From positions 1 to 64,000 of the forward strand of contig JAJFFY010000055.1 of assembly GCA_021776415.1 (NCBI GenBank): a DNA stretch of 64,000 bases. Reading direction: 5' to 3'. The position numbers were made by a program, and so were the translations under genes. Positions within the stretch are counted from its first letter, which is position 1. The number at the start of each line of letters is the position of its first letter. The notes beneath the pieces are model-generated. The model was not told the DNA's origin. It did not search any database and saw only the letters and a program-made list of their open reading frames with translations. This DNA is from Hyphococcus sp. GTDB lineage: Bacteria > Pseudomonadota > Alphaproteobacteria > Caulobacterales > Parvularculaceae. This document shows positions 10,745 to 26,670 of the stretch, piece after piece.

Positions 10745-13700
10745 CTACACTTCAACGTTAATATATACCTCGCCCTTCGCGAAGTTGCCGTTGTCGTCTT
10801 CAACCCAATACCAGAATTGATCCATCCCAGTGAAATTTGGGTCCGGCGTATAGGTTACCGTTCCATCACTATTCAGGTCCACGCGCCCATGCTCTGGATG
10901 CACAAACCCATCCACGGCAATCGCGTCGCCATCAGGATCGAAATCATTTGCAAGAACGTCGAGAATGACCGAGCTCCCGGAACTAACCGTCGTAGTATCA
11001 TCGGTCGCCACCGGCGCCGCGCTATTGACGTCAAGGACGCCATGATAAACCGGGTCAGCAAGGCCCGATGAACTCTTCGCCCCATCCACGCCGCCGGGTA
11101 TTTCAATAAACGTTGACTGCTTGGTCAGCTCTCCAGTAGCCCGGTCAGCAAAATACCGCTCAAAAACGGTTACGGCCCGCCCATCAGGCAAGGTCCAATA
11201 GCCTTCCTGTTCGATCGCATTGCCAAGAGCCTCAGCACGAAACACCTGGGGATCCAAGCCGCCGAGTTCGATAGCGCCAATGCTATCGGTTTTCACACCC
11301 GGTAAATTCATCCCGTAAAAGGGGGCGGCAACCGTGTGGAAAAGAGGAAAATCCTCAAGTCCGGATACAAACTCCATGCGCCCGGAAACAAGGTCAGCCG
11401 CGGTCAGGATTTGATCATTTGCGTCAAGGTTGATAAAATCATTGACCGCATTACTAACATTCACATCGATGAACACATATTGGAAGTTGCCGTCGAAATC
11501 AGTGAAGTTGGTGGTTTTGGCCAGGTTCAAGCCGGTCTCAAAGCCATCAATGTTGGCGTTGTTCACAACCAAGTCGAACGTGTTTTGCCCAAGGGATATG
11601 CCGCTCGCGCCATTGTCAGCGCCAATAAGATCAATATCTTTCAGCGTATAGTGGCCGGTATATTCCAGGTGAATGCCAAAACGCGTTTCCCAGGCGGTAA
11701 AGTCATCGATGACCGAGCGTACATCATGGCCCTGCCTAGGGCCTGGCTTGACAACATAAAAACCCGACCCTGTCGCAAAGGCCTCGTTGCCAACAAATTG
11801 AGATATCGCAGGCTGAAATATAGGCACTTCGTCTGCATAGTTCAGACTTTCCGGGTGCGGTGCATTGTCGGGAATAACCTTAATTGCATCGTCAAGGGGC
11901 GCACGTGAAAAATAGATGAACCCATGCCCGCTGGGAATGCCGGCGGCAACATTATCTACCGCATCAACTAATCGTCCCTGAAACCAGAAACCCGCGCCAG
12001 TGCGCCCAAGGTCAAACGCGGCGACGTCGGGACCATGTTTCGGATTATTGTCAAAACCTAACCCGGCTACACCAATCGACTTGATCGCTATATTGCTAGC
12101 CCACCGTCCGGTTTCATTACCGGTCTCGGCAACGAATGCCGCGCCGAACACATCATAGGCGGCGTTGTCTGTCAGAATCGCATTTGAATCATGATGAACC
12201 ACTCCCCAGCCGGGAGATCCCCAAACAGCGTTGCCGACAAGCTGGGCAGGATGGTCTTGATCGGAAACACCAGCGCGGTGAATATGAAGCGGGTAGCGCG
12301 CTTTGATATTGGTGTCGAAATCAACCGAATCCAGTTTTGCTATATCAAATGCGCGTTCAGACTTATCGGTACGTCCAAGATCTGTAAATTCCGCATAACG
12401 GACGTCGATATCGTCCGAATGCATAAACATCACATGACCGCGCTGGTACACCGGCAAATCATCTGCATTCTCGGTAATAAACTGAACATTGCGTGAATAG
12501 TTGGCGACGTAAGCTTTCAGATCAGCACGCGGCGTATCGTGATCGAAAACTAGTGGGCGATCAAATGAGATGACATTGCCATTGATCGCCGTAATGATGA
12601 TCTCTTCATCTTCCGTTGTAAGATCAGGGCGCTCCGTACCTGGCGGCAACGGGTTAGTATCGGGCAATTTCGTTCCGGTTAAAACCAGCCTGTCGCCGAC
12701 CGCCCAGCCATCCGGCGGCGCCTCGAGTGTCAGTGAAGTGTCGCCCGCCATCGCATCGATGGCGACTTTCAAGAATGTGTCTTTTTCGTCGCCATAAATT
12801 TCTACTGTTCCCTGACTGACAACGCCGCGAGACAAGAGTTGCGTGTCCCAGGAAACATCTATCGGACCATTGTCGGCGATCTGAATAACCGCCTCAACGC
12901 CAGGCGCCACCGGATTATCGGCTGTGCCGATCCTCAACGCGCCTGTTGGCGTAACGATCAGCGTATCAACTTCCATAAAGGTATTTTGATCTGTGGCGAA
13001 TTCAAGCGCGCCATCGATACGGACAGTAAACAGGGAAACCGTACTTTCGCCGTCATATGCGACCGTAACACCCTCGGGGATAAAGACTTTTGCGCCTTCT
13101 GGCGGCACTTCGCCATTCGCCCATGTATTGGGATCAAACCAAGACCCATCCGTAACGGCGACATGAGTTGCATCATCTACGGGCACAAGGTCCAATAGGG
13201 CCTGGTGTTCAGACGCCTTCGCATCCCCATGATGATCATGTCCCCCTAAACTGTCTGGCTGCGTTACATTGTCAGGTTCAACATGCGGCACGTCGCCCAC
13301 GATGACCTCAACGGACGCCGTACTTAGAGCGCCGCCCACATCTCGGACTTCATAGGAAAATGTCGCTACTCCCGTAAAGCCTTCACTAGGCACAAACCTT
13401 ACGCCAGCGCTGTCCAAAAATACGGTTCCATTCACCGCATCAAATACACGAACGACTTCCAGTCCGCCAAAATTCGGATCGATATCATTGGCTTGTAATT
13501 GCGAAGCTGGAATCAGCAGCGGCTGATCGACTTCAGCATGGACGTGATCATCGACTGCGGTGAGGTTTGCAGCGACACCGCCGCCGCCGGGATCCGAAGC
13601 CGCCCCGTCATCGCCGGCCGCGCCAAGTGGTATCTCTTCTTTACCAACGCTAAGACAGCCCTCCGCCGCCAGTAGCGGCGCCAGCAAACTGGCGCTCATC

Positions 13701-13861
13701 ATCTTCTTATGGTTTGCGCGCTTTCTTGCACGGCGACCTGTCGCTAGCGGCGCTTTGATGGCGCCAAGCCGGCTGGCCATTAATAAATCGTTTATGTTCA
13801 CTGAACTGGCGGAAAGAACAGTATCGCCGGAGCGAAAATTTTTGCTCATAATCAAGCTCAC
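10745..13861 (-). CDS. Large secreted/surface G8-domain protein with parallel beta-helix and cadherin/Ig-like domains (CEMIP/TMEM2-like architecture)
   Basis: G8-like WFDPNTWANGEVPPEGAKVFIPEGVTVAYDG...GALRIGT; beta-helix segment with ARYPLHIHRAGV; N- and C-terminal Ig/cadherin-like repeats (VLANDFDPDGDAIAV...FTGMDQFWYWVEDDNG); basic N-terminus then lipobox-like LLAAEGC. Confidence 0.82.
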   Translation of the reverse strand: MSLIMSKNFRSGDTVLSASSVNINDLLMASRLGAIKAPLATGRRARKRANHKKMMSASLLAPLLAAEGCLSVGKEEIPLGAAGDDGAASDPGGGGVAANLTAVDDHVHAEVDQPLLIPASQLQANDIDPNFGGLEVVRVFDAVNGTVFLDSAGVRFVPSEGFTGVATFSYEVRDVGGALSTASVEVIVGDVPHVEPDNVTQPDSLGGHDHHGDAKASEHQALLDLVPVDDATHVAVTDGSWFDPNTWANGEVPPEGAKVFIPEGVTVAYDGESTVSLFTVRIDGALEFATDQNTFMEVDTLIVTPTGALRIGTADNPVAPGVEAVIQIADNGPIDVSWDTQLLSRGVVSQGTVEIYGDEKDTFLKVAIDAMAGDTSLTLEAPPDGWAVGDRLVLTGTKLPDTNPLPPGTERPDLTTEDEEIIITAINGNVISFDRPLVFDHDTPRADLKAYVANYSRNVQFITENADDLPVYQRGHVMFMHSDDIDVRYAEFTDLGRTDKSERAFDIAKLDSVDFDTNIKARYPLHIHRAGVSDQDHPAQLVGNAVWGSPGWGVVHHDSNAILTDNAAYDVFGAAFVAETGNETGRWASNIAIKSIGVAGLGFDNNPKHGPDVAAFDLGRTGAGFWFQGRLVDAVDNVAAGIPSGHGFIYFSRAPLDDAIKVIPDNAPHPESLNYADEVPIFQPAISQFVGNEAFATGSGFYVVKPGPRQGHDVRSVIDDFTAWETRFGIHLEYTGHYTLKDIDLIGADNGASGISLGQNTFDLVVNNANIDGFETGLNLAKTTNFTDFDGNFQYVFIDVNVSNAVNDFINLDANDQILTAADLVSGRMEFVSGLEDFPLFHTVAAPFYGMNLPGVKTDSIGAIELGGLDPQVFRAEALGNAIEQEGYWTLPDGRAVTVFERYFADRATGELTKQSTFIEIPGGVDGAKSSSGLADPVYHGVLDVNSAAPVATDDTTTVSSGSSVILDVLANDFDPDGDAIAVDGFVHPEHGRVDLNSDGTVTYTPDPNFTGMDQFWYWVEDDNGNFAKGEVYINVEV

Positions 13862-15134: not shown

Positions 15135-16331
15135 TTAACCCGCCTCGCCTCCATCACCGCCACGTTTGGTTCGGGTCCAGGTTCTGGATGAGGCCCGTCC
15201 GCGACGCCCATAGACTTTCAGCTTCTGAAGCATAAATGGCGCCAACGCCCACAATTGGGACGCAGGAAGAGCCGTACGCCCAAAGCGCAGCCAGCCTGCG
15301 ACAAGCGCCAGGGAGAACAGCGCAATTGCGGTCAGTATAGTGATGAACGGGCCAGGTCCTGCAAATCCAAGCGATAAGGCCGACAGCACCGCCGCAAGGA
15401 TCAACGCGGAGCCGAGCGCAACTAGCGGCGGTATCATCGCATCGGCAGCCAACATCATCAGCCTCATATCGGCCCGAAAAATTCCACGCAACATCGCCGG
15501 CGCTGCACGGCGCGCCATAATCTCCAGCGATCCATGCTCCCATCGTGCGCGCTGGGTCACGCTGGCGTCTTTCGTGGTCGGGAAAAGGCTGGTCACTTGC
15601 GCATCGGGCGCAAATATCGGCGGCGCGCCGGCGAGCGCCATTTTCAGCGTCATCACCAGATCTTCGGTAATGTCGCCGGCGCCGAAATCCAGACGGGCGA
15701 TCAGCCCCCACGGCGCGGCAAGCCCCGCCCCGGTAAAACGCGTGGCGTTAGTGAGATTTGAAAGCCCCGTCATGCGTACGCGGTTGATCATAATCCAGGC
15801 AAATGCAGAAACGCTGGCTCCCGGTCCTGCGCCGGCTGGCGCGTTCATAATATAGAGCGCCTGTGCCGGGCGCCCGCTCGCCGTTGCTACGCCAGCTAAA
15901 TGTTGTAGTGCGCCCTCCCCCACCCGGCAGTCGGCGTCAAAGAATAATACGCATTCCGGCGGTTTATCGCGCAGACAATCAATTGCATATTGCAGCGCAT
16001 AACCCTTGCCGCGATGATCGGGCGCAACGCGAACCAAAACCTCCGCGCCGCATTCCCGCGCAACCGCTGCGGTGTCATCGGTGCAATTATCGGCAACAAC
16101 AATCAGCCGGTCATCCGGTCGCAATTGCGTATGAAGGTCACGCAATGTTGCAACTATATGGCGGCCCTCATTATGGGCGGGTACGATCACCGCGAGAGAC
16201 GACGGCGGCGCGCATGCAGATTGCCGGCGCAACGGGAAAAACGCGGCCAGAGTTTCGATGGCCAGCAAGACAGCCGGCGCCGATACCGCCAGTACTAAGC
16301 CCCAAAGCAGGGTTGTTAAGCCCGTGCTCAT
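15135..16331 (-). CDS. Glycosyltransferase family 2
   Basis: AVIVPAHNEGRHIVATLRDL, VVADNCTDDTA, FFDADCRVG, QRARWEHG; C-terminal TM helices. Confidence 0.93.
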   Translation of the reverse strand: MSTGLTTLLWGLVLAVSAPAVLLAIETLAAFFPLRRQSACAPPSSLAVIVPAHNEGRHIVATLRDLHTQLRPDDRLIVVADNCTDDTAAVARECGAEVLVRVAPDHRGKGYALQYAIDCLRDKPPECVLFFDADCRVGEGALQHLAGVATASGRPAQALYIMNAPAGAGPGASVSAFAWIMINRVRMTGLSNLTNATRFTGAGLAAPWGLIARLDFGAGDITEDLVMTLKMALAGAPPIFAPDAQVTSLFPTTKDASVTQRARWEHGSLEIMARRAAPAMLRGIFRADMRLMMLAADAMIPPLVALGSALILAAVLSALSLGFAGPGPFITILTAIALFSLALVAGWLRFGRTALPASQLWALAPFMLQKLKVYGRRGRASSRTWTRTKRGGDGGEAG

Positions 16332-17542
16332 GAGCGCGCATCCAGAACGGCTGAAAAATGCCCCGCGAGGCGCCCGGCTTCTCTATCAATATCGTGCATC
16401 GCTTCGACCCGTCGACGGCCTTCATTCCCCAACTGCGCAATTTGTTCGTCGTCAGCTTGTATGGCCTTACGCAAAGCCGCGGCGATCGCATCAATATCGC
16501 CGGCAGGCGTCAGCCAGCCGCAAACACCATCCGAAACCAACTCGGGGATGCCGGCAATGTAAGTTGTGATCACCGGTCGGCGCAGCGCCAACGCCTCCAT
16601 GATTGAGACCGGCAACCCCTCCGCATAGCTCGGCAGGATAAATCCGCGCGCATTAAGCAGCGCCTCACGCACTTCGCCCGGCGTCTTCCACCCCGCAAGC
16701 ACAACATTACGGCCTATGTCATGGCGTTTTATCGCCGCCTCAATTTCACTGCGCATTGGCCCGTCGCCGATTAGCGTGATTTTGATATCAGGAATATCTT
16801 TTGCAACCCGCGCTGTTGCTTCGACCAGATCGATCTGACCTTTTTCCGCACACAGACGGCCAGTGCAGATGAAGTTCGGCGCAGAAATCACATCAGCTCC
16901 AGCATCTTTGTAAAAAGTGCGCTCTATACCGCAACGAATGATTTTAATTGTCGGCCAGACAGACGGGGAGGAAAGCTTCTTTAACTGGCTTGCTCCAAAC
17001 TGCGAAATTGCGACGCTAAACGCTGCGCTTTCCAGCTTGCGTCGGAGTGAGATAAGCGCCGGCTTTTCAAATTCCTCCGGGCCGTGAACCGTGAAACTAA
17101 AGCTCGCGCCCGCCAGCGGCGCGGCAAGCATCGCAATCGTCGCGGCATTAGTGCCAAAATGCGCATGAACATGGCGCAAGCCATCGCGTTTTAGCCAATT
17201 TGCAAGAACCAGCGCTTCACCGAAATAGAACAAATGCCGCAACAGACCGGCCTCCGACCGCCAGCCGATGGAAACCGCCGCCGCCAGCGTACGCACAACG
17301 CCCAATGGGTTGGCCAAGCTTTCAGCAACAATTGACCGCAAAATTGAACCGGCGCCGGCGGTTATGATGTGGCGCGTTTTGGCGCTTTCATCAAAATCTT
17401 CCTGAGCGATCACTTCATCCTTTGACGGACGAATGGCGTAGCGAACAATCTCGGCGCCGCCACGCTCCAGCGCCTGGATTTCACGGCGGATGAAACTATG
17501 AGAAATTCCGGGATACTGGTTGATGAAATAAGCCAGCTTCAT
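16328..17542 (-). CDS. Glycosyltransferase family 4
   Basis: HVHAHFGTNAATIAML, FICTGRLCAEKGQIDLVEA, FILPSYAEGLPVSIMEALALRRPVITT. Confidence 0.95.
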   Translation of the reverse strand: MKLAYFINQYPGISHSFIRREIQALERGGAEIVRYAIRPSKDEVIAQEDFDESAKTRHIITAGAGSILRSIVAESLANPLGVVRTLAAAVSIGWRSEAGLLRHLFYFGEALVLANWLKRDGLRHVHAHFGTNAATIAMLAAPLAGASFSFTVHGPEEFEKPALISLRRKLESAAFSVAISQFGASQLKKLSSPSVWPTIKIIRCGIERTFYKDAGADVISAPNFICTGRLCAEKGQIDLVEATARVAKDIPDIKITLIGDGPMRSEIEAAIKRHDIGRNVVLAGWKTPGEVREALLNARGFILPSYAEGLPVSIMEALALRRPVITTYIAGIPELVSDGVCGWLTPAGDIDAIAAALRKAIQADDEQIAQLGNEGRRRVEAMHDIDREAGRLAGHFSAVLDARS

Positions 17543-17565: not shown

Positions 17566-19647
17566 TTATCGCTTAGCCCCGAACCATAATTTGCACGCAC
17601 CCAAAAACTCAGGAAACCGTCCCATAACGGCTGGAAACGCCACCTTCCAGGAGGAGAGTTTGAATAGCCCCCGGATCACCACCGCGGCGGCGATCCTGAA
17701 CACGAACACGCCGACCCCGAAGGCCAAAATGGCGCCGGCAATCAGTATTGGCGGCGTCGCCGGAGAAAATTTCATCGCCACAAGCGCGCCCAGCAAGGCA
17801 GCAGTAACGACCGCAGTAGGGAATAAAAATCCCCACAAAACCGCCAGAACCGTGTCCACCATTCCCAGGCGCTCTGGCGGCCCGCCATGCAGCGACGCGC
17901 AATAAGCATTTTCAAACCCACGCTGGCGGCTTTGCGCCCACCAACCGCCTGGCTTCACCGCCGGCCGGCACATCGCCATTGCCTCATCCAGGCGCCAGAT
18001 CCGCGCCCCGCGACGCCTCAGGCGGATACATAAATCTACCGTTTCCGCCGTTAAAAGGTCGCCGCGAAATCCGCCGGCCGCCTCAAAGCTTTCCACACGC
18101 ATTAAAGCAGACCCAGCATAGACGCACTGGATCTCACCTTCGCTATTGGCCGCGTCGCGAGCCCCCATCGGGGCTGTGGTTAAATTCGACCCGCTTAGAG
18201 GTTTTATCGCGCCGGTCACAATCGAGACCTCCGGGCGACGCGCCATAAATTTTTCCGCTGTTGCAATCCAGTCCGGGTCAAGAGCGGTATCGGCATCGAC
18301 AAACTGTACATATTCCAGATGCGGCGCAATCTTCTTCAACTGCCGATAACCGGCATTGCGCGCACGACCCGCAGGGCTGAATGACCGCTCTGATCCTTCG
18401 GCGATAACCGCGCCCGCACTTTTGGCGATTGCAATCGTGTCCGGTGCGCCGCCGACGGCCACAAAAACAATGGCCCGCCCGTCGCCCGCCGAGCGGATGG
18501 CCGCCTCTGGCGAGGCGTTGTTGTCAGATGCAACGACAACGACGCCGGTAATTGATGATTCTTCTTTTACGCCAGTAAATCGCGGCGTCGCCTCGTGCAA
18601 TTGACCGCCTGCGCGCGTAGCTACATCGACGATGACGTCGTCTGCGACGCGTTTTTCAGTCTCGTGAGGCTTGTTCAGCGGCGGTGCGGATTGTACGCGC
18701 GCGTCTTCGCTTGGTGCGGCTATGGCCTCGTCATTGTCATTGCGTCGGTTTTTTTTTGAATTGTCGGCAAAGGCGTCAATACCAGCTTCGCTAGCAGATC
18801 TTAGCGGCGGCGCGGCGGCCTCATCGGACGCCAGTCCAAATACGCCAAATTCAGACTTGTCGCGAATGACATTGCGAATGGTCTCCACCCCGACGACCAG
18901 CTCCTCAGCAGAAAACGCATAGACAAGCGCCGTGTCGGTGATAATGTTAATGACCCGCGGGACCCCACGTGAATGCTCCGCAATCGAATCAATAGCGCGG
19001 TCAGTAAACACGCGCCGCCGGCAACCGGCAATTGCCAGACGGGTGTCAATATAGGCGTGGACCTCCTCCACATTGAGCGGCGTGAGATGAAAATCCGATC
19101 CGACGCGCTGCGCCAATTGCAAAAGCTCCGGTTTATTTAGGAGCTCCTTCAATTCAGGCTGCCCGACTAAAATGAGTTGTAAGAGCTGATCCTTGCCAGC
19201 GTTAATGTTGGAAAGCATGCGCAATTCTTCGAGCATGTCGGTGGAAAGGTTTTGCGCTTCATCAATGATCAAAACAACGCGCCGGCCTTTGGAATATTCG
19301 CTGATAAAGAACGATTGCAGCTGTGAGAACAGCTCAACATGGGTCTTGCCCGCAAATGGTTCGCCAAAACCCATCAGCACCCAGCTTAAGAGGTCGCCGC
19401 GCCCTTGCTGAATATTCGACAACAGCGCGACAGTATGGGTGTCAGACAATTGATCGAGCAAACGATGCACGAGCGTAGTTTTGCCGCAGCCGACCTCGCC
19501 GGTAATGACCGATATGCCGGCATGGTTGAGGACGCCATATTCGAGCATGGCATAGGCAAGTCTGTGGGTCCGGCCCCAATATAAAAAAGCGGGGTCGGGC
19601 TGGATCGAAAACGGTTTTTCCGTTAGGCCAAAAAATTGTTCGTACAT
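17566..19647 (-). CDS. Fusion protein: N-terminal ExeA/GspA-like AAA ATPase and C-terminal membrane-anchored GT2 glycosyltransferase
   Basis: N-term MYEQFFGLTEKPFSIQPDP...GEVGCGKTT (Walker A)...VVLIIDEAQN (Walker B); low-complexity linker; C-term FVDADTALDPDW (DxD), FRGDLLTAETVDLCIRLRRRG, and TM helices; one uninterrupted 693-aa frame. Confidence 0.9.
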   Translation of the reverse strand: MYEQFFGLTEKPFSIQPDPAFLYWGRTHRLAYAMLEYGVLNHAGISVITGEVGCGKTTLVHRLLDQLSDTHTVALLSNIQQGRGDLLSWVLMGFGEPFAGKTHVELFSQLQSFFISEYSKGRRVVLIIDEAQNLSTDMLEELRMLSNINAGKDQLLQLILVGQPELKELLNKPELLQLAQRVGSDFHLTPLNVEEVHAYIDTRLAIAGCRRRVFTDRAIDSIAEHSRGVPRVINIITDTALVYAFSAEELVVGVETIRNVIRDKSEFGVFGLASDEAAAPPLRSASEAGIDAFADNSKKNRRNDNDEAIAAPSEDARVQSAPPLNKPHETEKRVADDVIVDVATRAGGQLHEATPRFTGVKEESSITGVVVVASDNNASPEAAIRSAGDGRAIVFVAVGGAPDTIAIAKSAGAVIAEGSERSFSPAGRARNAGYRQLKKIAPHLEYVQFVDADTALDPDWIATAEKFMARRPEVSIVTGAIKPLSGSNLTTAPMGARDAANSEGEIQCVYAGSALMRVESFEAAGGFRGDLLTAETVDLCIRLRRRGARIWRLDEAMAMCRPAVKPGGWWAQSRQRGFENAYCASLHGGPPERLGMVDTVLAVLWGFLFPTAVVTAALLGALVAMKFSPATPPILIAGAILAFGVGVFVFRIAAAVVIRGLFKLSSWKVAFPAVMGRFPEFLGACKLWFGAKR

Positions 19648-19723: not shown

Positions 19724-22102
19724 CTATTGCTGATTGAGAAGGTCGCGCACTTCGGTTTCAAATCGAAAATTCTCTCCGCCAACCTCCAACGCCTTGTTCA
19801 AATTGATCCGGCCAAGCTCCGTCTGGCCAGCGGCGATTTGCGTCGCACCCAGATGGTAGAGGATTTCTCCATTGCTCGCCGCCGCTGACGCTTTGGTTAG
19901 AAACTCCAGAGCGCTGTTATATTGACCGGCGCGGTAATGCGCCCAGCCAACCGTATCCTGAACTAGCGCATTTTCATCTTTCTCAAGCACGCGAGAGACC
20001 TCAAGAGTGCGCGCAATGCTCTTTTTATCCTTGCGTAGATCGCTCGACAGGCTGACAAAATTATTAGCGATAATCCGGTCTCCCGGGCGCGTTTCAATCA
20101 GGTCGCTATAGATTTCAAGCGCTTGCTCTAACTTACCGGAGGTCACCAGATAGTCGGCCTTAAAAAATTGCAGCGCAATGTTATCCGGCGCCCGTGAAAG
20201 ACCGTCCTCAATTAGTGCAATCGCTTTTTCACGCTCGCCTTTAGCGATATTGTACCGATAGAGAAGTTCAAACGCCTCGCCGCGGGACGGCTCAACATCG
20301 ACGGCTTCTAGCAGAACCGCCTCGCCAGCGGCGGCGTCGCCGCCGGCGCCATAAGTTCGAGCCAGAAGTATGCGGGCTGCGTAATTGTTTGCATCCGACG
20401 CAATAACATTTTGCAACACCTGTTCAGCTTCATCAACGCGGTCGGCCTTCAAATAGGCGGAAACAAGCATCGCCAATGGCCGGCTTTCCAGCGGCGCGTC
20501 TTTATTTTGCGCAGACAGCATATCGATGATTTGGCCGTATTCTCCAAGGCCGCTCAGCGCGACTGTGCGTATTTGACTTGCAAGATCATTTTCAGCGCTC
20601 ACATCAAGCGACTCGATAATAGACGCAACTTCATCAGCGCCCTGCCAATCCCGAATATCCAAACGCACTGCGGCGAGAAGTTTTAAATTATCTAAATCAC
20701 CAGAGAAAGCCGCAAGTGACTGCACCAATATATCTTCAGCGCGCCTCGCATCGCCGTGTCGGATTAAAAATTTCGCGTACGCATTGGCAATGCGCGCTTT
20801 TTTGCCGCTTGTCTCAAATGCTTTTGCAAGTTCGGCTCTGGCAAAGTCGATATTGTCCTGACGCTCAAACGCACTCGACATCAAAACCATCGCCTCAACC
20901 AGGTCTGGATTGTTGCTAAGCGCTGTGCGCAAATCGGCAACGCCGTTTTCAAACTTGCCTTCATCAAGCAGTAAACCCGCCCTACGGATTAACGCGTCGG
21001 TATTGTTGGCGTCAGCTTTAAGGATTTCATTGACGAGCGCTTCTGCCTTGTCGCGATCGCCATTACGTAAGTGCAAAAGCGTGAGCTTATTTTTTGCACG
21101 CAACTCCACAGCTGGCTCATCAGCCCCCATCAGCGGCTCTAGCGCCGTGATCGCCTTATCCAATGCGCCCCGATCATATAGCAGATCGACAAGCGCGAAC
21201 CGCAAATCCTGGTTTTTTGGAAACTCCTCAATGAATGCGCGAAGCCGGTTTTCAGCAGCGTCCGCACCATCTTTTGCGCTCACGATCCGCACGACGTCGA
21301 GTTTGGCGTCATTATTTTCAGGGTCCAGACCAACTAGGATTTCCATTTGTTCCTTGGCGGCCGCAAAATCCTTCCGCTTAATGAATTCCATTGCATAGGC
21401 GCGCCGATAGACCGGTTCCTCAGGGAAAAGCTCCGACAACCGCGCGAAGCCTGCAAGAACATCTTCGCTGCGATCAAGATTCGACAATATCTGGATGCGC
21501 AGGAGTTGCAGTACGGCAGCTTTAGGATCAATATTTAGTGCGCGATCAAGCTCGCCGATTGCGCCTTCCATATCGCCGTTCATGCCGCGCTCGGTCGCCA
21601 ATACAGTGGCCGCTTCGACATGCCCCGGTTGGACGGAGATTGCCTGACGCGCCAACTTAACGGCGCCCTCTGTATCACCAAGGCGCAACAGGATGCCGGA
21701 TTTCAATGCAGTGGCGTCGACAGAATTTGGGTCTAGCGTAAGCGCCGCTTCAGCAGATTCAAGCGCTGCGGTCTCGTCGCTGCCGATCAAATAGAGTTTA
21801 CCAAGCTGGATGTGAGCAAAGGTGTTGTCGGCGTCGAGCCGTATGATGCGCTGATACAGACCGAACATCGCTTTAAGGTTTTTTCGCCCTTCAGCAATCT
21901 CAGCCATGCCCATCAACGCCGGCACATAGGTTTCATCAATTTTCAATACATTTTGAAATTGAACATTCGCTTTTCCGTACTCGCCCTTTTCAAGAAATTC
22001 CTGCCCGCTGGCGTAATATTTCTCAATTTTGGCTTCCGGCGATGAGCAGGCTACTGAAAACATGCTGAGCGCGGCAATTGCTGCAATCTGGATATTGCGC
22101 AT
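19724..22102 (-). CDS. TPR-repeat lipoprotein (resembles PrsT-type EPS/PEP-CTERM-locus TPR lipoproteins)
   Basis: Signal peptide with lipobox MRNIQIAAIAALSMFSVACSS, then many TPR repeats along the whole length. Confidence 0.85.
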   Translation of the reverse strand: MRNIQIAAIAALSMFSVACSSPEAKIEKYYASGQEFLEKGEYGKANVQFQNVLKIDETYVPALMGMAEIAEGRKNLKAMFGLYQRIIRLDADNTFAHIQLGKLYLIGSDETAALESAEAALTLDPNSVDATALKSGILLRLGDTEGAVKLARQAISVQPGHVEAATVLATERGMNGDMEGAIGELDRALNIDPKAAVLQLLRIQILSNLDRSEDVLAGFARLSELFPEEPVYRRAYAMEFIKRKDFAAAKEQMEILVGLDPENNDAKLDVVRIVSAKDGADAAENRLRAFIEEFPKNQDLRFALVDLLYDRGALDKAITALEPLMGADEPAVELRAKNKLTLLHLRNGDRDKAEALVNEILKADANNTDALIRRAGLLLDEGKFENGVADLRTALSNNPDLVEAMVLMSSAFERQDNIDFARAELAKAFETSGKKARIANAYAKFLIRHGDARRAEDILVQSLAAFSGDLDNLKLLAAVRLDIRDWQGADEVASIIESLDVSAENDLASQIRTVALSGLGEYGQIIDMLSAQNKDAPLESRPLAMLVSAYLKADRVDEAEQVLQNVIASDANNYAARILLARTYGAGGDAAAGEAVLLEAVDVEPSRGEAFELLYRYNIAKGEREKAIALIEDGLSRAPDNIALQFFKADYLVTSGKLEQALEIYSDLIETRPGDRIIANNFVSLSSDLRKDKKSIARTLEVSRVLEKDENALVQDTVGWAHYRAGQYNSALEFLTKASAAASNGEILYHLGATQIAAGQTELGRINLNKALEVGGENFRFETEVRDLLNQQ

Positions 22103-22227
22103 AGATTTTCCACGCTGTGCAAAGCCGCGTTGTCGGCCGATTGTTGGCTGGTTCATTTCTCTAGGCATTTACTTCCCCCTAAACAGGTCAAAAACTTTTC
22201 GATCACTCAAATACATGGCGCCGCTAT

Positions 22228-23502
22228 TTATGCCGTAGCCGCGCGACCGGTATCCAAAATCCGTTCTTCCGCCGCCGCCGCACTATAATTCATAGCGTTC
22301 GCCCGCAGGATCGCTCGGTGGCGCGCTGTAGCGCCATCTACGTAAAGCCTCCTGCCGCCTCTGGCGACATGTTTTTCCAACATCAAGATCAGCCCAAGAA
22401 ATGACCGGTCGAATTGGGTCACCGCGGAAAAATCAAGCACGATATCGCTCCCGCTGGCGGCGGCGCTCCGAAACGCCTTGCGGGCTGCAGCAAGACTTGC
22501 CGTCGTAAACGCCCCGGAAAGGACAATGGCGGTCCGCGAGGCGTCGCGACGGATATCAGCCGTCGCAGCTGCTGCACCCCGGCTAGGCCCGCTAGACCAA
22601 TGGTGCAGCGCCAGCAATTGGGGCGCGAGACGACGTATAACGATCCCGACCAGGGCCGCGCCATCGCCCAAATAGCGCCGCCACAATGCCGGCTCTTCCT
22701 TGATCCGCCAGAGCCATTCAAGGCCCAGTTTTTTGACTATCTCTGGTGCGCGGTCGATCCCGCCGGCGGTGAAATCCACCACAGCGCCAAGATGTGCGAT
22801 CACCGGCGCATCTAATCGGTCCTTGTTGCGGTCAATCCAGGCCTGACCTTTCGCAGCGCCCAGCGCAACAACGACAAAATCCGGGCGCGCAACGTTAATC
22901 TCGGCGATAATTGCCGGCGCGCTCATGGTCTCGACGTCTCCAAATCCCGGATTGAGGCAGCCGACCGCCTCTACGCCGCTTTGTTCTTTGTTCAAGGCCT
23001 CAACTGCCGCCGCGCCCGCGCCATCGCGCCCGCCAAAGAAAAACACTCTTGTCTGGCGCGCGCCGAAACCCGGGCGCCGGCGCAAGGCTTCAAATATATC
23101 CGCACCCGCCACCCGCGACGGCGCCGGAACGCCCAGCATTCTCGCCATCGCAACCAGCGGCGCACCATCAATAAAACTAAGATCAGCGTTCAGAACTTCG
23201 CGCCGCGCGACGTCATCCCTCAAGACCCGCACAAGCCAGTTCACATTTGGCGTGACGAATGAAAGCTTGTGCCCGGTCCGCACCGCCGTATCGATCTCCG
23301 CAACCGCCCGGTCAACGGTAGCGGCGTCAACGGGAAGGCCCAACAAACACCAAACGTCACGGTCGAAATCATCGCGCGGGACAAGTTGCCTTGCCCGCCC
23401 GGCAGCGCCAACCGATCCTGGCTGCGGCTTGGATTGCGCGCCCGGGCCTTTTTCCGCAGCGGCGTTTTGCGCCGAAGAAGAGCTTGCCCGTAATCCTGCC
23501 AT
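22228..23502 (-). CDS. WecG/TagA/CpsF (GT26) glycosyltransferase fused to C-terminal STAS domain
   Basis: GT26: LSFVTPNVNWLVRVLRD, NADLSFIDGAPLVAMARMLG, RVAGADIFEAL, APVIAHLGAVVDFTAGGIDRAPEIVKKLGLEWLWRIKEEP; STAS-like: TAIVLSGAFTTASL...DIVLDFSAVTQFDRSFLGLILMLEKHVARGGRRLYVDG. Confidence 0.88.
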   Translation of the reverse strand: MAGLRASSSSAQNAAAEKGPGAQSKPQPGSVGAAGRARQLVPRDDFDRDVWCLLGLPVDAATVDRAVAEIDTAVRTGHKLSFVTPNVNWLVRVLRDDVARREVLNADLSFIDGAPLVAMARMLGVPAPSRVAGADIFEALRRRPGFGARQTRVFFFGGRDGAGAAAVEALNKEQSGVEAVGCLNPGFGDVETMSAPAIIAEINVARPDFVVVALGAAKGQAWIDRNKDRLDAPVIAHLGAVVDFTAGGIDRAPEIVKKLGLEWLWRIKEEPALWRRYLGDGAALVGIVIRRLAPQLLALHHWSSGPSRGAAAATADIRRDASRTAIVLSGAFTTASLAAARKAFRSAAASGSDIVLDFSAVTQFDRSFLGLILMLEKHVARGGRRLYVDGATARHRAILRANAMNYSAAAAEERILDTGRAATA

Positions 23503-24101
23503 AAAAGCGCGCCTTCTTTATTCTGGTTAACAAAAACAGCGTTCCAAACTGAACCCTGCGCCGGTATTAACAACCTCGCCGGGTCTTCTGGCCGGTATTG
23601 AGCAAGGCCCGGGCCAGCTTTCTCGATTGCCTGGCTGGGTCTTGGCCAGAGCCGGCCGTATAGAAAAATTCCCTGCATCGGCGCCAGCCGCTAGCGAGCT
23701 TAACCCTTAATACCGGCATTTTGGCGATTAAATTAACCTAAAGACAGGCCGGCGACAAAGACCAAACGCCTAATCGAGCCCTCAAAGACCGTCTTTCGCG
23801 GGGGAGTTGGCGTATTGCGCACGCCAATTGCGGCATTCCGTCAAGATATAAGCGGTTGCAGGCAATAGCGTCTGAATAGTATAATAAGCTGAATAACACA
23901 GCCAAACGAACAGCTTAGCTGTTGGTCAGCGCCGCTCGCTCGGGCATTTGTTAACCGGCCTAAAGCTTGCAACCAAAGTTTGCCTTTGCGGGGCAGCAGT
24001 TGGGGGCTTGATGTCTGGGCTTGCAACCGTGGCCTGCAGGACGAATAACCGCCACATTGGCGTAATAACTTTGCGTAAAGCTTGAATCGGGAAGTTCCAG
24101 A

Positions 24102-25721
24102 ATGGGCGACGAATTTTCACTTGAAGATGTGCTGATCATCCTGCAGCGGCGGTTTTGGTATTTCCTCATTCCGGTGCTGGTGATTGCACCGATCGGTATT
24201 TTAACGGTGATGTTGCTGCCGCCTAAATACACCGCAAAGGGCACGATCTTAGTTGAATCACAGCAGATCCCGACGGAATTTATCCGCTCAACGGTCAACG
24301 CTTACGCTCAAGAGCGCATCCAAACCATTCGCCAACGGGTGATGACGCGCAACCGGCTGTTGCAGGTTGCTGATAAATACACGGTGTTTCCGCGAACCAC
24401 ACGGCTTTCTGAAAGTGAGCGCGTTGCTCTGATGCGAGACGGCCTCAACGTATCCCTGATTACCATCGACCGGGGGCGGCGCTCGGCGAAGGATGGCACG
24501 ATTGCCTTCACCGTTTCCTATACCGACCGTGACCCGGCCAAGGCATATCTGGTCGCAAACGAATTCATGACGCTTTTCCTCAGCGAAGATGTCCGCTCAC
24601 GTACTGCCGGCGCCTCCAATACAACGGAATTTTTTGAGCGAGAAGCCGCCAAGCTACGTGCGGAAGTCAGTGCAATTGAAAGCCGGATCTCGAATTTCAA
24701 AGTTGAAAATGCCGATGCATTACCGGAACATCTCAATATGCATCTCGATATACTTGAGCGCACAACGCGTGAATTAAGCGGCGCCCTGCGATCAATCGAA
24801 TCCTTGGAAGAAGAAAAACGGTTTTTGGAAACGCAACTGGTCTCCAATGTCCGTCCCGAAAATGGGTTGTCGCAAGAATTATTGCGCCTGGAGAGCGAGC
24901 TGGCGCGGCTGCGCGGCACCTACCTTGACACTTATCCCGAAATTCAAGCCAAGCGCGACGAGATCGCCGCTATAAAACGCCAGATGGCGCCGAGTGCGGA
25001 AATTCAGCGATTGCGCACCGCGCTGCGCGACGCCGAAGCTGAGCTGTTTTCATCCGAGCGAACCGATGACCCCAACGCCGATGATATCGCCGCTGCAGAA
25101 GCCGCGGTCGAGAACGCACGCGACGCACTCAGTCAAAAAATCTCGCGCGACACCCGCAACGGAGCGACGGACATTTCCGGCGTGCAAATGGAAGGCCGGC
25201 TCGCGATCATTGAAAACCGTATCCGCATGCTGGATCGATCCGCAGAAGGGCTGCGCGCTCAGATACAAAATTATGAGGAGCGTATCGGCAAAACCCCGGC
25301 GGTCGAGCGCGACCTGGCCGGCCTGACGCGCGATTACGAAAACACATTCCGGGAGTACCAGGAAGTTCGAGGCAAACAACAGGACGCCCAGCTTGCCGAA
25401 AACCTTGAGGAAAACCGGCAGGCGGAAAAGTTTTCCATTCTTGAGCCAGCACTGCGGCCGGACCGGCCGACCAGCCCCGACCGCATAAAACTCAGTATTC
25501 TTGCTATTTTTGCATCGCTCGCCGCCGGCGGCGGTATTGGGCTTGCCGCTGAATTATTGCTTTCCACCGTCCGCGGCCGCAATCATGTGGCTGGCCTGGT
25601 CGACGAACATCCCATCGCCGTCATTCCTTATATACCTGGCAACAAGGACAAAAGGCCGCCTCTTTTTTCGTTGTTCAGGCTCCGCAAGATGAATGTCGAT
25701 AACGCGCCAGAAGCGGCTTAA
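24102..25721 (+). CDS. Wzz/GumC-type polysaccharide chain-length determinant / co-polymerase
   Basis: N- and C-terminal TM segments, Wzz N-term (EDVLIILQRRFWYFLIPVLVIAPIGILTVMLLPPKY), long coiled coil, P-rich C-terminal motif LEPALRPDRPTSPDRIK. Confidence 0.92.
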   Translation: MGDEFSLEDVLIILQRRFWYFLIPVLVIAPIGILTVMLLPPKYTAKGTILVESQQIPTEFIRSTVNAYAQERIQTIRQRVMTRNRLLQVADKYTVFPRTTRLSESERVALMRDGLNVSLITIDRGRRSAKDGTIAFTVSYTDRDPAKAYLVANEFMTLFLSEDVRSRTAGASNTTEFFEREAAKLRAEVSAIESRISNFKVENADALPEHLNMHLDILERTTRELSGALRSIESLEEEKRFLETQLVSNVRPENGLSQELLRLESELARLRGTYLDTYPEIQAKRDEIAAIKRQMAPSAEIQRLRTALRDAEAELFSSERTDDPNADDIAAAEAAVENARDALSQKISRDTRNGATDISGVQMEGRLAIIENRIRMLDRSAEGLRAQIQNYEERIGKTPAVERDLAGLTRDYENTFREYQEVRGKQQDAQLAENLEENRQAEKFSILEPALRPDRPTSPDRIKLSILAIFASLAAGGGIGLAAELLLSTVRGRNHVAGLVDEHPIAVIPYIPGNKDKRPPLFSLFRLRKMNVDNAPEAA

Positions 25722-25845: not shown

Positions 25846-26670
25846 ATGGATCGCATAAGACAAGCAGTAACGCGCGCACGCAGCGGCGCAAAACAAACCG
25901 CCACGTCGACCGCGGCAAAACACCCGCAGGGTCCGCGATTTGCACACCAAGGCGCTGGCGGCGATCATCCGCTAGCGGAAGATCGGTTCGCATCGGCGGC
26001 ATGCAATTTTGACCAGTTCGGCGCCCATCGCATCATCTCTAATGAACAAGATCCGGTTCTCAACGCCTATCGGGTTCTTCGCACCCGTGTTCTGCAGAGA
26101 ATGGATACTGCAGGCTGGAAGACGATCGCCGTTGTCTCCCCCGGCGCCGGCGCCGGCAAAACCGTTACTGCAATCAATCTGGCGATTGCCATCGGCGCAA
26201 AGACAGGCGCGCATCCGGTGCTCGTCGATCTAGATTTTTACCGCCCCAGCGTCTCGCGATATCTCGGGTTTCGCGAGCCTCCTTCCCTGCTCGATTTTTT
26301 TGAAGGCAAGCGCGAGCTTGACGAGGTCACGGTTCGCCCGGACCTTAACGATTTGCTGGTGATTCCAAATGAGCGCGTGACCCGCAGAGGCGCGGAGTTC
26401 TTAACCTCCGAACGGGCCGACCAACTCATCCATACGGCCGTCAATGATTACAAATCGCGCACCGTGATTTTCGATATGTCGCCGCTGCTCGGCTGTGACG
26501 ACACCCTCGCCTTCCTACCCAAAGTCGATTGCGTACTACTTGTCGCAGCAAGCGGCCAGACCCGGGTATCGGAATTGAAGGAAGCAAAGCGCATCCTCGC
26601 CAAGACCAACGTGATCGGCACGGTCTTGAACAAGTCGCCGCGGGCGCTGATGGCCAACCAATATTATTAA
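25846..26670 (+). CDS. BY-kinase-like (CpsD/HfsB-type) capsular exopolysaccharide family ATPase
   Basis: Walker A SPGAGAGKTVTAINLA, Walker A' VLVDLDFYRPSV, Walker B RTVIFDMSP; C-terminal NQYY. Confidence 0.88.
   Translation: MDRIRQAVTRARSGAKQTATSTAAKHPQGPRFAHQGAGGDHPLAEDRFASAACNFDQFGAHRIISNEQDPVLNAYRVLRTRVLQRMDTAGWKTIAVVSPGAGAGKTVTAINLAIAIGAKTGAHPVLVDLDFYRPSVSRYLGFREPPSLLDFFEGKRELDEVTVRPDLNDLLVIPNERVTRRGAEFLTSERADQLIHTAVNDYKSRTVIFDMSPLLGCDDTLAFLPKVDCVLLVAASGQTRVSELKEAKRILAKTNVIGTVLNKSPRALMANQYY

Follow-up and report, generated by a model that had tools for sequence, protein, structure and literature searches.

The window analyzed here is a stretch of 64,000 nucleotides from a Hyphococcus sp. 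contig of the family Parvularculaceae. It contains an uninterrupted open reading frame of 693 aa, which runs on the minus strand from the ATG at 19647 to 17566. A sequence-only reading of this DNA had proposed an ATPase–GT2 fusion in one 693-aa frame. The fusion is real, but it has to be placed on the minus strand; the plus strand across 17566-19647 contains many stops. The encoded protein consists of an XrtA/PEP-CTERM-type AAA ATPase, a low-complexity linker, a domain of the GT-A/GT2 fold, and two transmembrane (TM) helices. The ATPase domain is TIGR03015/ExeA-like (aa 1-265; 18853..19647, minus strand) and carries the Walker A motif GEVGCGKTT and the Walker B motif LIIDEAQN. It is followed by a linker of ~95 aa (aa 271-363; 18559..18837, minus strand), which was delimited by its composition, rich in Ala, Asp, Glu, and Pro, and by a pLDDT <50. 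The pseudo-glycosyltransferase (pseudo-GT) domain of the GT-A/GT2 fold (aa 366-600; 17848..18552, minus strand) was assigned by PF13632, Foldseek, and residue contrast, and the C-terminal membrane segment (aa about 594-693; 17569..17868, minus strand) by hydropathy and AlphaFold2 (AF2) helices. This segment comprises two predicted TM helices (about 594-665) and a terminal helix; the helices of the AF2 model span residues 596-627, 633-659, and 664-689. Prediction of the full chain gave a confident GT part (pLDDT mostly 80-90) followed by two long C-terminal helices, with the linker disordered.

The gene lies in an EPS locus. Adjacent upstream, on the minus strand, is a gene for a PrsT-like TPR protein (19724..22168; TIGR02917, 5.5e-62, 209.8 bits against a cut-off of 312.2); PrsT was defined within the PEP-CTERM system (PMC1569441). 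A WecG/TagA/CpsF glycosyltransferase with a C-terminal STAS domain is encoded at 22228..23502 on the minus strand (PF03808, 5.1e-44; PF13466, 4.2e-13), and its gene stands next to prsT across the family. The next gene downstream of the fusion codes for a GT4 glycosyltransferase (16328..17542, minus strand; PF00534, 1.6e-31, and synteny), beyond which an EpsU-like GT2 is found (15135..16331, minus strand; PF13641, 1.1e-19; NF041865, 9.6e-44). A Wzz-type chain-length determinant (24102-25721; TIGR03007) and a tyrosine autokinase of the same locus (25846-26670; TIGR03018) are encoded on the plus strand. The genes adjoining the fusion, for PrsT, Wzz, the tyrosine kinase, and glycosyltransferases, correspond to the EPS/exosortase locus context of TIGR03015 ATPases. 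Across the family, the order is Wzz/kinase, often an exosortase, WecG-STAS, PrsT, the fusion, GT4, and the EpsU-type GT2, and then an active GT2, a 2OG oxygenase, and a G8 protein; not every locus has all of these members. The active GT2, which belongs to the subfamily of the pseudo-GT, is located one or two genes downstream of the fusion in many loci; the window's locus is without a linked copy, and a relative is found elsewhere in the same genome (G000:C33). Many relatives also carry an exosortase gene between the Wzz and WecG genes, in the place of the interval 23502-24102, which is not the case in the window's close clade; the exosortase of this genome is on another contig (G000:C41). The EPS locus ends with a conserved gene (10745-13861); its large product, a G8/CEMIP-like beta-helix protein, has cadherin-type repeats and may act on polysaccharide or belong to the cell surface. 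In an Amphiplicatus-like genome (G001), the locus contains a second fusion, of the EpsU-type GT2 to the active GT2 (729 aa; L123:4515-6704).

The best family match for aa 1-263 of the fusion is TIGR03015 (1.9e-84, 283.3 bits), under the NCBIfam cut-off of 324.5, and aa 42-170 match AAA_22 (PF13401; 9.4e-29, 100.8 bits against a Pfam gathering cut-off of 27). Walker A and Walker B are kept in 32/32 fusions checked. The ATPase part was poor in the first full-length AF2 model, probably due to too uniform an alignment; when the domain was refolded with 20 diverse homologues, a pLDDT of 90 and an Orc/Cdc6/TnsC/MuB-like AAA+ fold were obtained. Its PDB relatives found by sequence are weak MuB/AAA-type matches. 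The same genome codes for a second ATPase, which scores 332.8 bits to TIGR03015, above the cut-off, and whose gene belongs to a canonical XrtA locus that also encodes Wza, Wzz, a kinase, a deacetylase, and FemAB; the fused ATPase is another copy, encoded beside prsT. The unfused orthologues nearest to it are about 59% (family f45) and about 42% (genus g8) identical, and they directly adjoin prsT. Adjacency in fused and unfused genomes alike indicates that prsT is the ancestral partner gene of the fused ATPase. Based on hydropathy, a TM segment was predicted in none of the unfused orthologues, whereas two were predicted in the fusions examined. Since the unfused forms stand beside prsT and are without TM segments, the fusion appears to have given a membrane anchor to the soluble ATPase of a conserved prsT–ATPase pair. 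In other fusions found elsewhere, an XrtA-type ATPase is combined with polysaccharide deacetylase/DUF3473, ankyrin repeats, a coiled coil, or RodZ_C (L175:266-2530, L178:850-3462, L171:8424-11432, and L172:367-2409, with gene starts as predicted), and this ATPase looks like a portable module.

The C-terminal half keeps the glycosyltransferase fold. Residues 446-623 match PF13632 (Glyco_trans_2_3) with 28.9 bits at a cut-off of 27, and Foldseek placed this part among GT-A/GT2 structures (6p61, TMt 0.77, and others). The pseudo-GT matched active GT2s by profile (hhalign, probability 100%, E 4.3e-66); a sequence search with the pseudo-GT profile returned no PDB relatives. The residues of 32 fusions were aligned with those of 18 active relatives, of which 17 are from the same clusters and one is from elsewhere in this genome; "active" means motif-intact by sequence. 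The Asp that binds the nucleobase and the His of the HD motif are present in all 18 active relatives and in none of the fusions, which also lack the Arg and Glu of GRNEG (0/32). The catalytic base, the second acid of the ED motif, is found in 18/18 active relatives and 1/32 fusions; the window's own protein has Thr at this site and, as most fusions do, keeps the first Glu. The active set has GRNEG, VDSGS, DGD, the second acid of EED/EEP, and HD in intact form, and the fused set has lost them. The earlier claim of a GT2 domain marked by DADTALDPDW holds with respect to the string and the fold. The window's protein has D-A-D at the DxD site, but relatives that are 85-88% identical have D-A-E, D-A-G, or D-A-Q, and the second Asp is present in 7/32 fusions, so the site lacks the conservation expected of a catalytic motif. 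Of the positions that 34 active GT2s conserve to at least 97%, the fusions have lost most of those around the donor site, and they keep others (R66, N69, G116, C176, R178, W206, G214, and H224, L003 numbering). Structural residues (RxRN, CxR, W, G, and H) stay while donor-side motifs are erased. The fusions have invariants of their own, several of them basic, which include residues of GYRxLK, RRPEV, and RRRG. Stand-alone GT2s of other families keep the motifs; 3/10 miss one pattern each, which may reflect a limit of the motif search. Because the catalytic residues are lost throughout the fused clade, the GT part is read as a pseudoenzyme, and it is almost certainly not a working glycosyltransferase.

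The distribution of the architecture was determined by profile searches. Of 63 Parvularculaceae genomes, 32 carry an intact fusion, and it occurs in four of the nine genera; the carriers include named isolates, among them Marinicaulis flavus and Amphiplicatus metriothermophilus, and one single-contig genome. Four more family genomes (G004, G007, G022, and G042) have a fusion cut by contig ends or a frameshift. A full-length profile run over 299 genomes of the order (E <= 1e-60) matched in Parvularculaceae only, and in samples of 395 class and 399 phylum genomes, all that the GT profile met outside the family were stand-alone GT2s. An assembly or frameshift artefact, with two separate ORFs in relatives, was rejected; such ORFs were not encountered, and the fusion is intact across independent assemblies. 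In the tree, all fused GT domains fall into one clade (support 100/100) on a long branch apart, and by this phylogeny the fused domain is of single origin. A degenerating pseudogene was likewise rejected. The dN/dS of close pairs, computed by NG86 with some dS values >1, was 0.04-0.19 in the GT part, compared with 0.09-0.22 in active GT2s. The fused domain is therefore not decaying, and purifying selection acts on it with the same strength as in its active relatives. The corresponding values were 0.005-0.035 for the ATPase domain and 0.17-0.36 for the linker, the fastest-evolving part. In one UBA4496 genome (L052:6744-8986), a frameshift divides the fusion into parts of 649 and 113 aa; it is either real or a draft error.

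We conclude that the protein is probably a PrsT-associated XrtA-type ATPase with a C-terminal pseudo-GT that acts as a membrane anchor and docking module in the EPS locus. The transferase part most likely serves as an anchor or docking piece and not as an enzyme. The sequence-only reading had suggested that the ATPase directly gates or positions an active membrane GT2, for which the GT2 fold, the Pfam match above the cut-off, and the DxD of this species would speak. However, the clade as a whole is without the donor-binding and base residues, and the DxD varies even among close orthologues. With the catalytic residues missing across the fused clade, gating of a working GT2 is not supported, and we regard this model as highly improbable. 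What stands is a covalent fusion that is real, old, and conserved, with the ATPase at the membrane in a locus of EPS/XrtA type; the positioning survives in an altered form, in which the ATPase is probably what is positioned, by the inactive GT fold and possibly beside active glycosyltransferases.

A sensor role, in which the GT domain binds a ligand without catalysis (nascent glycan, undecaprenyl-linked sugar, or nucleotide) and thereby controls the ATPase, would agree with the better conservation of the acceptor-side/structural half than of the donor half; the nucleotide-binding motifs are gone, though, and we find this role improbable. The C-terminal module could also be a pure membrane tether, with the GT fold an evolutionary leftover without a specific partner. 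TM helices were gained in fused forms only, and fold and TM are retained, as such a tether would have it, but it is an unlikely explanation of the many invariant soluble-domain residues, several of them clade-specific and basic, and of a dN/dS that is no higher than in active enzymes. Together, the invariant residues and the low dN/dS suggest a specific surface on the pseudo-GT. It is tentatively possible that the pseudo-GT is a dedicated adaptor, which docks the ATPase on the active GT2 of the same subfamily or on the EPS polymerase and makes it an ATP-driven control or assembly module of exopolysaccharide production. Docking to that GT2, which is encoded outside the window, is a conjecture.

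The anchor and docking reading can be put as a sequence of events. By the sequence evidence, a membrane GT2 of the active subfamily present in many of these clusters was copied and joined to the end of the ATPase gene in an ancestor shared by several Parvularculaceae genera. The copy lost its donor-binding and catalytic residues, while the GT-A fold and membrane helices were kept under purifying selection. The dead domain would anchor an otherwise soluble ATPase at the inner membrane and may dock it onto the EPS assembly machinery (glycosyltransferases, Wzz/kinase, and PrsT). ATP hydrolysis at the membrane could then drive the export complex to assemble, or regulate it, in the way that ExeA acts on its secretin; the ExeA ATPase domain is required for complex formation and secretin multimerisation (PMC4098917). 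A further precedent, at the level of AAA+ ATPases, is PrmE, which is essential for Sphingomonas EPS (PMC11340318).

The literature search found no description of the ATPase–GT2 fusion architecture, so it is not widely described in the literature searched. Pseudoenzymes are a known kind, as are XrtA ATPases; that the two are covalently united and that the GT is dead appears to be new. To our knowledge, no target is known for the XrtA-associated ATPases that recur in exosortase/EPS loci; if the adaptor reading is true, they would obtain a defined physical one. A natural fusion whose partner lost catalysis but kept fold and surface suggests that docking at the membrane, beside glycosyltransferases, is required. 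The natural unfused orthologues offer a comparison of the ATPase with and without the anchor. The case also warns that dead domains can pass for enzymes when GT2s are annotated by fold or Pfam match.

Compared with known systems, the fusion shares intact Walker A/B motifs and a prsT neighbour in an EPS locus with TIGR03015 XrtA ATPases, but it scores under their cut-off and carries a pseudo-GT. Inactive GT partner subunits and domains are known, exemplified by GtfB, the non-catalytic partner of GtfA. Such partners similarly retain a GT fold for a non-catalytic role; their GT fold and pathway are different, and they are not known to be fused to an AAA ATPase. With ExeA/GspA of type II secretion, the fusion has in common an AAA ATPase in the cytoplasm that is linked to a membrane segment (PMC4098917). 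ExeA/GspA has one TM and a periplasmic domain, whereas the fusion has a GT-A pseudo-domain and two TM helices, and no Pfam match to the peptidoglycan-binding domain of ExeA/GspA was found in it. In the same EPS loci, the active membrane GT2s (MftF/EpsD-like, an unnamed subfamily) are homologous to the fused form over the whole domain and the C-terminal helices, but their catalytic motifs are all intact, while those of the fused form are lost.
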